Positions 44,688 to 47,830 of a stretch of 64,000 bases of DNA are shown here, piece by piece. The DNA comes from Georgenia soli (GTDB taxonomy: Bacteria > Actinomycetota > Actinomycetes > Actinomycetales > Actinomycetaceae). Under the pieces are notes generated by a model. It was given only the letters and a program-made list of their open reading frames with translations, did no database searches and was not told the DNA's origin. The position numbers were made by a program, and so were the translations under genes. The stretch is from NCBI RefSeq assembly GCF_002563695.1, contig NZ_PDJI01000004.1, positions 2,108,001 to 2,172,000 of the forward strand, written 5' to 3'. The first letter of the stretch is position 1, and each line of letters begins with the position of its first letter.

Positions 44688-44840
44688 ATGAGCAGGTCCG
44701 GCTACAACTCCCCCACCCCCGCCGTCGCCCGCGCCCGGCGCGCTTTCGAGCGCCGGCTCGAGCTCGAGCGCCGCCGTCGGGAGGCCGACCTGCCGGAGGC
44801 CAACGACACGCCGGCGGGGAGCGCGGACCCCCGCTCCTGA
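44688..44840 (+). CDS. Small highly charged protein, 50 residues
   Basis: ATG 44688 to TGA 44838-44840 encodes 50 residues: MSRSGYNSPTPAVARARRAF then a Glu/Arg-rich helix (RRLELERRRREADLPEAND) and a flexible tail. It has codon use like its neighbours, with G/C at most third positions, and an in-frame ATG at 44673. No family is recognised. It lies in the gap between the divergent lipase and guanine-deaminase genes. A chance reading frame cannot be excluded. Confidence 0.5.
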   Translation: MSRSGYNSPTPAVARARRAFERRLELERRRREADLPEANDTPAGSADPRS

Positions 44841-44918
44841 CGGCCTCGGCCGCCACCTGCCCCCGTCCAGGCTCCACGCCGCGGAAATTCTCTTCCGTAA
44901 TTCCTTGTGGTCCAGATC

Positions 44919-45036
44919 ACCAGGGACTATGGTCCTGGCTCACCGACGCCGTTGTTGGCATGGATAACCTGCGGGTCGGGCGGAGTCCTCAACCATGCCG
45001 GTCCACCGACGGACCGTGGCATGGGAGGAGTGCGCC
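44919..45036 (+). promoter_or_regulatory. Structured leader with mutually exclusive hairpins (candidate riboswitch or attenuator)
   Basis: GGCATGG (44957-44963), CCATGCC (44993-44999) and GGCATGG (45018-45024) are mutually complementary. The downstream pairing is extended by GGTCC/GGACC and TCCTC/GAGGA to about 17 bp and buries the ribosome site GGGAGGAG (45023-45030). The upstream pairing (9 bp with two G-U pairs) would release it. A further hairpin CCAGGGAC/GTCCTGG stands at 44920-44938. The leader precedes the guanine deaminase/purine permease operon, so a purine ligand is a reasonable guess. No known riboswitch class was recognised. Confidence 0.65.
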
Positions 45037-45102
45037 ATGGCGCCAGCTCTGCGACGCGCAGACCGGGCCCGGGCCCTGACGACGGCGGGGGCACGAACGT
45101 GA
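45037..45102 (+). CDS. 21-codon leader peptide coupled to guanine deaminase
   Basis: ATG 45037 has GGGAGGAG 6 bp upstream, the best ribosome site in the operon, and encodes MAPALRRADRARALTTAGART. Its TGA (45100-45102) overlaps the GTG start of guanine deaminase at 45099, so ribosomes finishing it can restart on the enzyme gene. The peptide itself has no recognisable function and may serve only for coupling. Confidence 0.6.
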   Translation: MAPALRRADRARALTTAGART

Positions 45103-46433
45103 CCCTCTACCGAGCGACGGTGCTCGACACCCCCGGGGACCTGCCAACGGCGGACGGCCTGCGCGCGTCCGAGGACTGCGGCCTCGTCGTCCACGACGGC
45201 ATCATCACGTTCCGCGGCGATTTCGCCGGCGTCCGGGCGGCGTTCCCGGACGAGGAGGTCGTCGACCTGCGGGGCGGCGTGCTGCTGCCCGGGTTCGTCG
45301 ACACCCACGTCCACTACCCGCAGGTGCGGGTGGTCGGCGGTCTCGGCATGCCGCTGCTCGACTGGCTGCGCGAGTGCGCGCTGCCGGAGGAGCTCAGCCT
45401 CGCCGACCCCGTGTACGCCCACGGCGTCGCCCGGGACTTCCTGAGCGGCCTCGTCCACGCGGGCACGACGACGGCGCTCGTCTTCGGCTCCCACTTCGCC
45501 GACGCCGTCGACGCGCTCTTCACCGAGGCCGAGACGGTGGGGCTCCGCATCACCGCCGGGCTCGTGGTGAGCGACCGCCTGCTCGCCCCCGGCCTGCACA
45601 CCACGCCGGCGGCGGCGCTGCGGGACGGCGAGGAGCTCGTCGCCCGCTGGCACGGGCGCGGCAGGCTGCGTTACGCCGTCAGCCCGCGGTTCGCCCTCTC
45701 GGCCAGCGAGGCGATGCTGGAGTCCTGCGCGGCGCTCATGGACGCCGCGCCCGGGCTGTGGTTCACCTCGCACCTGAACGAGAACGTCGACGAGATCGAG
45801 CACGTGAACCGCCTGTTCCCGGGCGCCGCGGACTATCTCGGCACCTACGACGCGCACGGGCTCGTCAACGCCCGCTCGGTGCTCGCCCACAACGTGCACC
45901 CGTCCGCCGCCGAGCTGGGCGTGCTCGCCGGTGCGGGCGCCGCGGTCGCGCACTGCCCGTCCTCGAACTCCGCCCTCGGGTCGGGCCTGTTCCCGCTCCG
46001 GGACCACCTGGACGCGGGCGTGCGGGTGGCGCTGGGCACGGACGTCGGCGCCGGGACCGGTTTCTCCCTGCTGAAGGAGGGCCTGCAGGCCTACTTCGTC
46101 CAGCAGCTGCTCGGCCCGGACGGGCTCACCCTGACGCCCGCCCACCTGCTCCACCTCGCCACCCGCTCCGGTGCGCTCGCCCTCGGGCTCGGCGACCGGG
46201 TCGGTGACCTTGGCGTCGGGCGCGAGTTCGACGCCGTCCGGCTCCACCCCCGGCCGGGCAGCACCCTCGACGTCGCGCTCCGCCACCCCAAGGACGCCAC
46301 AGACGCACTCGCCAAGATCTTCACCCTTGGCACCCCCGCCGACATCGATGTCGTGTGGGTCGCCGGCCAGGTCGTCACCGCGCCGGCACAGCTGAGCCGT
46401 GACGGCTCCCTTTCCCCCATGGAGACCACATGA
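45099..46433 (+). CDS. guaD: Guanine deaminase
   Basis: A 444-residue amidohydrolase. LLPGFVDTHVHYPQVRVVGGLG near residue 65 provides the zinc HxH, RYAVSPRFALSASEAMLE near 190, FTSHLNENVDEIEHV near 225 a metal His, LAHNVHPS near 265 another and LGTDVGAGTGFSLL near 310 the catalytic Asp; SSNSALGSGLFPL is also diagnostic. It deaminates guanine to xanthine. GTG 45099 is chosen because the conserved barrel entry starts there and it couples to the leader ORF. A purine permease overlaps its stop. Confidence 0.95.
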   Translation: MTLYRATVLDTPGDLPTADGLRASEDCGLVVHDGIITFRGDFAGVRAAFPDEEVVDLRGGVLLPGFVDTHVHYPQVRVVGGLGMPLLDWLRECALPEELSLADPVYAHGVARDFLSGLVHAGTTTALVFGSHFADAVDALFTEAETVGLRITAGLVVSDRLLAPGLHTTPAAALRDGEELVARWHGRGRLRYAVSPRFALSASEAMLESCAALMDAAPGLWFTSHLNENVDEIEHVNRLFPGAADYLGTYDAHGLVNARSVLAHNVHPSAAELGVLAGAGAAVAHCPSSNSALGSGLFPLRDHLDAGVRVALGTDVGAGTGFSLLKEGLQAYFVQQLLGPDGLTLTPAHLLHLATRSGALALGLGDRVGDLGVGREFDAVRLHPRPGSTLDVALRHPKDATDALAKIFTLGTPADIDVVWVAGQVVTAPAQLSRDGSLSPMETT

Positions 46434-47830
46434 GCACCACCATCGGCACCAGGAAGGCCACGGACACCGCGGCGCGCCGCGGGTTCCTCGACCGCTACTT
46501 CGGCATCACCGCCGAGGGCTCCACCATCCCGCGCGAGCTGCGGGCCGGCTTCACCACGTTCCTGACGATGAGCTACATCCTCTTCGTCAACCCCCAGGTC
46601 CTCTCGGCCGCGATCGACGTGCCCAACGCCTCGGTCCAGCTGCTGATGACGACGGCGATCGCCGCCTGCTTCGGCTCCCTCGTGATGGGTGTGATCGCCC
46701 GCTACCCGTTCGCCCAGGCGCCCGGGATGGGGCTCAACGCCTTCTTCTCCTACACCGTGGTGGCCGGCATGGGGGTACCGTGGCAGACGGCCCTCGGCGC
46801 CGTGTTCATCTCCGGCGTGCTCTTCGTGGTGCTCAGCGCCGTGGGCGCCCGCCGGGCGATCGTCATGGCGATCCCCATGAGCCTCAAGCTCGCCATCACC
46901 GCCGGCATCGGCTGCTTCCTCGCCTTCCTCGGCCTGCGCAGCGCCGGCCTGGTCGTCACGAACGAGGCGACCATGGTCAGCCTGGGGTCGCTGAGCAACC
47001 CGACCGCCTGGATCGCCATCATCGGCCTGCTGGTCACCGCGGTGCTCCTCCAGCTCAAGGTCAAGGGCGCCATCCTGTGGGGCATCCTCGGCAGCTCGGT
47101 GATCGCCATCGCGAGCGGCGCCAAGGTCTACCCCGGCGCCGACGGCGAGATGCAGTCCTTCGGCGGGTTCAGCAACGGCGTGGTCGCGGCCCCCATCTGG
47201 CCCTCCGAGCTCGTCGGCCAGCTCGACCTCGCGGGCGCCGTCGGACTCGGCCTCCTCAGCGTGGTCTTCACCTTCTTCTTCGTCGACTTCTTCGACGCGA
47301 CCGGCACCCTGACCGGCCTCGCGCAGCGCGCCGGCTACCTCGACGAGCGCGGCGACATGCCCCGCGCCAAGACCACCTTCGCCATGGACGGCCTCGCCGC
47401 CATGTTCGGCGCCTTCATGGGCACCTCGACCACCACCGCGTACGTGGAGAGCGCCTCGGGCATCGAGGACGGCGGCCGCACGGGGCTGACGTCGGCGACC
47501 ACGGGCATCCTCTTCGCGGCCGCCATGTTCCTGTGGCCCCTCGCCGGCGCGATCCCCGGCGCCGCCACGGCCCCGGCGCTGATCCTCGTCGGCGCGCTGA
47601 TGATGGACGGCATCCGCAACATCGCCTGGAACGAGATCTCGGAGGGCGTCCCCTCCTTCCTGGCGATCATCTCGATGCCGCTGACCTTCTCGATCGCCAA
47701 CGGCGTGAGCCTCGGCGTCATCAGCTACTGCGCCATCAAGCTCTTCACCGGCAAGGGGCGCGAGGTCCACATCATCCTGTACCTCGTCGCCGCACTCCTG
47801 GTGGCCAGGTACATCTTCCTCGACGGCTGA
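46430..47830 (+). CDS. AzgA-type purine permease (NCS2 family)
   Basis: A 466-residue membrane transporter. FLDRYFGITAEGSTIPRELRAGFTTFLTMSYILFVNPQVLS is the AzgA opening; ARYPFAQAPGMGLNAFFSYTVV near 85 and FFFVDFFDATGTLTGLAQRAG near 285 form the substrate site, and FMGTSTTTAYVESASGIEDGGRTGLTS near 330 is the NCS2 signature. These permeases import guanine, hypoxanthine or adenine by H+ symport. The ATG overlaps the deaminase stop (ATGA), so both are co-translated for guanine uptake and breakdown. Confidence 0.95.
   Translation: MSTTIGTRKATDTAARRGFLDRYFGITAEGSTIPRELRAGFTTFLTMSYILFVNPQVLSAAIDVPNASVQLLMTTAIAACFGSLVMGVIARYPFAQAPGMGLNAFFSYTVVAGMGVPWQTALGAVFISGVLFVVLSAVGARRAIVMAIPMSLKLAITAGIGCFLAFLGLRSAGLVVTNEATMVSLGSLSNPTAWIAIIGLLVTAVLLQLKVKGAILWGILGSSVIAIASGAKVYPGADGEMQSFGGFSNGVVAAPIWPSELVGQLDLAGAVGLGLLSVVFTFFFVDFFDATGTLTGLAQRAGYLDERGDMPRAKTTFAMDGLAAMFGAFMGTSTTTAYVESASGIEDGGRTGLTSATTGILFAAAMFLWPLAGAIPGAATAPALILVGALMMDGIRNIAWNEISEGVPSFLAIISMPLTFSIANGVSLGVISYCAIKLFTGKGREVHIILYLVAALLVARYIFLDG

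Follow-up and report, generated by a model that had tools for sequence, protein, structure and literature searches.

We analyzed the leader of a purine operon in Georgenia soli (contig NZ_PDJI01000004.1, positions 2,108,001 to 2,172,000; this 64,000-nucleotide stretch, numbered from 1, is called the window). The leader precedes a guanine deaminase gene (guaD) and a purine permease gene, and contains a compact RNA element at 44943–44999. A first-pass annotation had assigned the leader to a purine operon and described three complementary segments, a ribosome-binding site and a chain of overlapping open reading frames (ORFs). All of these features are present as described, and the operon assignment is supported; the two genes match profiles for guaD (TIGR02967) and for the PF00860 permease family. 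The segments are GGCATGG (44957–44963), CCATGCC (44993–44999) and GGCATGG (45018–45024), and further blocks can pair around them, TCCTC with GAGGA (44986–44990/45025–45029) and GGTCC with GGACC (45000–45004/45011–45015). A 7-base word followed by its complement and then by the word again was seen in 13 of 5000 mononucleotide shuffles of 44905–45040; the triplet is unlikely to arise by chance, yet by itself it is not decisive.

A covarying pseudoknot in the leader

The first two segments had been proposed to form an upstream pairing. Their pairing (helix P2) is indeed conserved, and its outer pair covaries (G-C, U-A, C-G), but the fold is an H-type pseudoknot rather than a simple hairpin, with a second helix, P1, crossing P2 (Table 1). 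The annotation overlooked P1, as well as the wide spread of the element. P1 can be recognized by eye, as bases just 5′ of GTT pair with bases just 3′ of AYAACC and thereby cross GCATGG/CCATGC. Examples include CCGAC-CC/GG-GTCGG in the window, CCGAGTC/GGCTCGG, CCGTGGGCG/CGTCCACGG, CCGACC/GGTCGG, GCGCATC/GATGCGC (leader L201) and AGTCACG/CGTGGCT (L218). The third loop, L3, varies from 8 to 22 nucleotides (nt) across leaders, and short Nocardioides elements measure 54–56 nt in all.

Covariation was quantified in an alignment of 49 sequences (A4) gathered without use of P1. Three of 52 sequences were excluded from the count, one with loop L2 a base short (L047) and two near copies (L168, L175). 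Across P1 and P2, 86.6% of cells are paired, compared to 77.8 ± 0.8 in shuffled alignments (0/500) and 24–41% in slid registers. Two-sided changes occur in 76 cells, versus 32.6 ± 4.9 in shuffles, and the covariation score is 0.263, versus 0.135; neither value was reached in any of 500 shuffles. Within P1, 7 of 10 pairs show two-sided change and 79.6% of cells are paired. P2 is 97% paired, with 5 of its 7 pairs invariant; its outer pair is G-C in 13 sequences, U-A in 7, C-G in 2, U-G in 2, unpaired in 10 and gapped in 15.

Partner-swap tests gave a similar picture for P1. In 53 sequences, the strands pair with their own partners at −13.1 kcal/mol and with swapped partners at −10.2 ± 0.35 kcal/mol (0/2000). 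With about one sequence per genus, the values are −13.2 versus −9.9 ± 0.6 for 20 sequences (0/10000) and −13.5 versus −9.4 ± 0.5 kcal/mol for 28 (0/10000), the 8 additional sequences of the larger set having been recovered with a model that already contained P1. The annotation had staked its proposal beforehand on covariation and presence in relatives; at the level of sequence, the element both covaries and recurs.

Table 1. Features of the guaD leader and operon, in window coordinates
Feature	Position	Strand	Basis and remarks
GGAA-N6-TTCC dyad, candidate transcription-factor operator	44883–44896	+	sequence; upstream of putative promoter; same form in relatives
Putative promoter: −35 TTGTGG (44905–44910), 17-nt spacer, −10 TATGGT (44928–44933)	44905–44933	+	by eye; similar hexamers in relatives
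P1 5′ strand of pseudoknot, G44948 bulged	44943–44952	+	pairs with 44971–44979; covariation, partner-swap tests; duplex −13.9 kcal/mol
Loop L1, conserved GTT at 44954–44956	44953–44956	+	invariant in A4, but GTT fixed in search pattern and extraction rules
P2 5′ strand, GGCATGG (first segment)	44957–44963	+	−11.2 kcal/mol with 44993–44999
Loop L2, conserved AYAACC plus T44970	44964–44970	+	looser forms AAAACC, ATGACC, CCAACC in relatives
P1 3′ strand	44971–44979	+	covariation; duplex energy
Loop L3, conserved AA at end; includes TCCTC able to pair with ribosome site	44980–44992	+	tests of L3 against ribosome site
P2 3′ strand, CCATGCC (second segment)	44993–44999	+	covariation
Window-specific alternative hairpin arm: GGTCC/GGACC, GGCATGG (45018–45024), ribosome site GGGAGGAG (45023–45030)	45000–45030	+	folding; third segment not seen in relatives
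21-codon leader ORF, ATG at 45037; TGA (45100–45102) overlaps guaD GTG (45099)	45037–45102	+	sequence; 18-codon counterparts in L025 and L026
Guanine deaminase, guaD	45099–46433	+	TIGR02967, 385.6 bits, over cut-off
Purine permease, Xan_ur_permease family (called AzgA in the first-pass annotation); overlaps guaD by ATGA at 46430	46430–47830	+	PF00860, 137 bits; no NCBIfam match in profile search

Distribution and gene association

When 44900–45110 was searched against the DNA of 59 related genomes, the part 44918–45002 matched a second copy in the same genome (G000:C4:3735726), six further Georgenia genomes (two copies in each of two) and one genome from a different genus of the family. Downstream of these copies lie genes for xanthine dehydrogenase or guanine deaminase. 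Two more genomes matched downstream coding-like parts only. Ten such sequences were built into a model with P2 as its sole structure (R1), and a collection of species genomes was scanned with a pattern fixing CGYYGTT, GCATGG and AYAACC. The scan drew 113 stretches, 52 of which hold 53 clear matches (at least 23 bits), the other 61 being without a clear element. Invariance of the three fixed motifs in this set is by construction, while P1 beyond CGYY, L3 and the 3′ strand of P2 were free to vary. Weak R1 matches of 22–30 bits (30 rows) were discarded; 13 were inspected, and none resembled the element.

The element occurs in Georgenia, Occultella, Brevibacterium, Pedococcus, Phycicoccus, Terrabacter, Intrasporangium, Humibacillus, Knoellia, Segeticoccus, Ornithinimicrobium, Austwickia, Brachybacterium, Nocardioides and Microlunatus, plus some actinobacterial metagenome-assembled genomes. 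One such assembly (L158, QEUR01000109.1) is titled Acidobacteria; its element is closely like that of Ornithinimicrobium tianjinense (L161), its xdhA start is like that of Ornithinimicrobium, and it is probably a mislabelled or mixed bin. A second model that includes P1 (R2) matched 9 of 394 genomes of the class and 44 of 396 of the order. In the phylum it matched 2 of 336 genomes, both known before, and added no further group. As the genome searches used strict filters, these counts are lower bounds.

Among 71 distinct elements in the leaders read, 65 lie before the xanthine dehydrogenase gene xdhA and 6 before guaD (a text rule assigned 59 and 6, respectively, and 6 further xdhA leaders were assigned by eye). 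Two leaders beyond these 71, with CCAACC forms of the loop (L220, L221), likewise stand 5′ of xdhA. The gene xdhB is found in 78 of the 396 genomes of the order, and all 44 genomes with the element are among these 78 (Fisher 2.3e-37, relatedness ignored). Forty-three of 46 elements lie 1521–1791 bases upstream of xdhB on the same strand; the other three (in the window, G800 and G093) precede guaD. Profiles identified xdhA (below the curated cut-off), xdhB and xdhC in the xdh operon of the same genome as the window, and, elsewhere, guaD in G800 and xdhA in G752 (below cut-off). One general mark of a riboswitch, a conserved covarying structure in the 5′ leaders of one pathway's genes, is found here, and we regard it as nearly certain that the element is a real, structured and widespread cis-regulatory RNA.

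Some individual loci deserve mention. In G800 (L224, L254), a copy was found before guaD only, the genome's xdh leader yielding none. An xdh leader in L240 (539–616) has a perfect 8-bp P1 (GTGCCCAG/CTGGGCAC) and CCACCATGCA, with the 5′ strand of P2 interrupted, and may be a decayed or divergent relative. In the genome containing the window (G000), xdhABC is followed by a gene for 8-oxoguanine deaminase (L027:8344–9501; NF006055, over cut-off though cut by the locus end).

Comparison with known RNA classes

At gathering thresholds, Rfam 15 gave no match in the window. At permissive thresholds there were only matches far below gathering, and the one overlapping the element was a microRNA family, mir-3943 (24.1 of 69 bits, E 0.34); the element in relatives was likewise without a match. 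A guanidine-III match at 45225–45270 (15.3 bits, E 0.93) lies inside guaD and was taken as chance. The xanthine-I model (RF03054) found nothing in 44780–45300 at E up to 10 and nothing in the whole genome, and 14 control genomes also gave none. The purine model (RF00167) had no match in the genome, with a control search positive in Bacillus subtilis and Lactococcus lactis. No description of the element was found in Rfam 15 or in the searchable literature, a search that leaves most subscription papers and preprints outside. In the portions available of PMC8632094 and PMC10043782, xanthine appears in reference lists only, and from the main text of PMC11109978, so far as available, the terms xanthine, xdh and guanine are absent.

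Two described classes are close in gene context. Xanthine-I, or the NMT1 motif, is likewise a small cis-regulatory RNA before purine-oxidation genes, including guanine deaminases, and is thought to act on translation initiation (PMC7373994). It binds xanthine and urate. Its architecture, however, is rod-like, with its stems stacked and a long-distance base pair connecting two internal junctions (PMC8266621), whereas covariation in our element supports two crossing helices. Xanthine-II, a variant of RF00167, also often precedes genes for xanthine dehydrogenase, allantoinase and dioxygenase (PMC9295807), but it is built on a three-stem junction. A third group is alike in fold, the H-type pseudoknot riboswitches SAM-II, preQ1-I/II and guanidine-III. 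In these, as in the element, two helices cross within a compact aptamer and conserved loop bases lie close to the ribosome site; sequences and accompanying genes differ.

Pairing with the ribosome-binding site

The annotation had also proposed that a downstream pairing buries the ribosome site. In the window this pairing is strong: the downstream hairpin has an energy of −27.5 kcal/mol alone, is present in the minimum free energy form of the leader, and pairs the ribosome site with a probability of 0.99. The leader as a whole has a z score of −2.26, with 3 of 200 shuffles equally stable. Energies of the competing forms are close, at −25.1 kcal/mol for P1 plus P2 (−13.9 and −11.2) versus −27.5 for the hairpin. 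Because the blocking hairpin also takes the 3′ strand of P2, blocking and pseudoknot are mutually exclusive in the window. The part of the proposal that did not carry over is the third segment, GGCATGG, which is absent from the other leaders read.

A looser pairing of L3 with the Shine-Dalgarno (SD) sequence at the ribosome site recurs among the leaders. In 71 of them we folded, in isolation, the region that begins with L3 and ends shortly after the start codon, and found the ribosome site paired with L3 or the P2 3′ strand at a mean probability of 0.40, compared to 0.29 with shuffled spacers. L3 scores −9.32 against its own SD, a slight excess over permuted partners (−8.56 ± 0.26; 5/3000) and a clear excess over shuffled L3 (−7.12; 0/300). 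Plain cases of L3:SD pairing are TTCACTC/GAGTGAA in Humibacillus, ACTCCC/GGGAGT in Nocardioides and TCCTC/GAGGA in the window.

In the window, both 5′ strands of the pseudoknot recur downstream in the same order, at 44941–44948/45004–45011 (CACCGACG) and 44956–44963/45017–45024 (TGGCATGG). Together, the third segment and this duplicate of the P1 5′ strand resemble a decoy of the aptamer's 5′ half, which we noticed in the window only.

Proposed mechanism and alternatives

The element is quite probably a metabolite riboswitch. As for how it works, we infer small-molecule binding, a ligand and a sign: the conserved pseudoknot is likely to be the sensor of a translational riboswitch that responds to a purine, with xanthine or a near relative the foremost candidate and an ON switch favored. 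The 5′ end of the guaD-permease mRNA would fold as the sensor, with the crossing helices and the GTT and AYAACC loops forming a purine pocket. The ligand would most likely be xanthine, the product of guanine deaminase and substrate of xanthine dehydrogenase, or else guanine, hypoxanthine or urate; the strict link to xdhA and guaD makes guanine or xanthine likelier. Granted a riboswitch, xanthine or a close oxopurine is a fairly good guess at the ligand. When the pseudoknot is held, L3 and the P2 3′ strand would be occupied and the ribosome site free; when it is lost, they would pair onto the ribosome site. The ligand would thereby switch on guanine and xanthine breakdown by substrate induction, and this ON sign we somewhat favor.

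Several results weigh against this interpretation. In A4, 8 pairs show at least one two-sided change, a count matched or exceeded in 264 of 500 shuffles. Support for P2 comes mainly from its outer pair, which is non-pairing in 10 of 34 scored cells, the inner pairs being near-invariant. The swap test is weaker when taken by single leader, as a median of 16% of foreign partners pair equally well and only 19 of 53 leaders fall at 10% or below. Only 27 of 71 leaders have the ribosome site paired with L3 or P2 at a probability above 0.5, and overall pairing of the SD in the 71 leaders shows no rise over spacer-shuffled controls (0.642 versus 0.638). In some Nocardioides leaders, the ribosome site lies within ∼5 nt of P2, such that the folded pseudoknot might block rather than free it. 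Finally, 33 of the 35 xdhB genomes of the order that lack an element before xdhB were searched there with filters off (G614 and G632 lie outside the 33; among the 33, L241 has no recognised xdhA start and G800 carries its only copy before guaD). The 5 matches obtained, the best at 13.1 bits, were not convincing, and xdh can therefore dispense with the element.

The same RNA and ligand group could operate with the opposite sign, the ligand-bound pseudoknot holding the ribosome site and turning translation OFF as product feedback. We consider this unlikely, if still the most serious alternative. Substrate induction is the commoner mode for catabolic genes, which speaks for ON. The short distance from P2 to the ribosome site in Nocardioides leaders such as L129 and L147 would suit an OFF switch, and xanthine-I itself is one (PMC7373994). 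Set against this, L3:SD pairing and P2 compete for neighboring strands, and the blocking hairpin of the window incorporates the P2 3′ strand. More doubtful still is that the pseudoknot binds a regulatory protein instead of a metabolite. A protein site could show the same conservation and the same strict tie to particular genes, but crossing helices with conserved single-stranded loops, and two targets linked in metabolism and otherwise unrelated, suit a metabolite sensor.

Two further alternatives we find very hard to credit. One takes the GCATGG/CCATGC inverted repeat, just 3′ of the putative promoter, as a DNA operator for a transcription factor. The spacing of its arms is very variable, following L3, and the sequence of P1 varies with its complementarity preserved, as expected of RNA rather than a DNA site; moreover, a separate upstream GGAA/TTCC dyad is a better operator candidate. 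The other, to which we assign an equally slight probability, is a conserved upstream ORF in which the ATG of GCATGGAYAACC (44960) starts a peptide MDN... and Y is a wobble base. In favor of this, ATGGAYAAC hardly varies, and both forms of GAY encode the same amino acid. However, the ATG lacks a ribosome site (mean −2.2 versus −9.1 kcal/mol before gene starts), its distance to the P2 3′ strand falls in each of the three frames (26, 25 and 20), and the frame ends inside the element in 7 leaders, in the spacer in 25 and past the gene start or not at all in 39 (n = 71). Codon 2 can also be GAA (L191) or GCC (L220, L221), codon 3 GAC (L205) and codon 4 a stop (L047). A purely local hairpin was considered and dropped.

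Returning to the ON riboswitch, the full proposal, a new pseudoknot class that senses xanthine or a near oxopurine, has no relation to xanthine-I or xanthine-II and switches on guaD and xanthine dehydrogenase, is in our assessment evenly balanced. The known riboswitches for purine breakdown fall into few classes; of the two xanthine classes that we found in the literature, xanthine-I is proteobacterial and xanthine-II consists of guanine riboswitch variants. If correct, the proposal would add a third, unrelated and pseudoknotted class in high-GC actinobacteria, with a compact new fold, and would show that RNA sensors for one metabolite have arisen independently more than once. Because a recent search of 50 genomes favored low-GC genomes (PMC11109978), high-GC groups may hide more such classes. 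The ligand is directly testable, as the genes point to a handful of purines.

Leader peptide

The 21-codon leader peptide of the first-pass annotation is real in the window and not general to the element. Counterparts of 18 codons are found in two other Georgenia only (L025, L026), and in all three cases the ORF has a ribosome site 5′ and a TGA over the guaD GTG. An ORF with its own ribosome site that ends over the guaD start is hence present in 3 of the 6 guaD leaders. Of the remainder, L033 has a 4-codon ATG frame that ends over the guaD ATG, with the ribosome site very near, L176 has GTG frames only, without a clear ribosome site, and L201 has no leader frame. Judged by sequence, the leader ORF is a means of coupling rather than a conserved peptide, because the three ORFs are little alike.

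Promoter and candidate operators

A strict sigma-70 scan did not call the putative promoter of Table 1, from which the RNA is expected to start near 44940, just 5′ of P1. The sole terminator-like call of the scan (44881–44898) lies upstream of this promoter and was read as a DNA dyad. The GGAA-N6-TTCC dyad, likely a transcription-factor operator, is also present in L018, L021, L023, L027, L116, L191, L226 and L234; L226 and L234 are xdh leaders that carry the dyad and yet lack the RNA element, and the dyad is perhaps the older of the two. A different dyad, TCAACA/TGTTGA, is located between the putative −35 and −10 hexamers (as in TTGATTCAACAGTTTGTTGAG) in L072, L126, L100, L103 and L196, and in less perfect form in L143. 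Its hosts are Pedococcus, Phycicoccus, Knoellia and a relative, and it too is a candidate operator.
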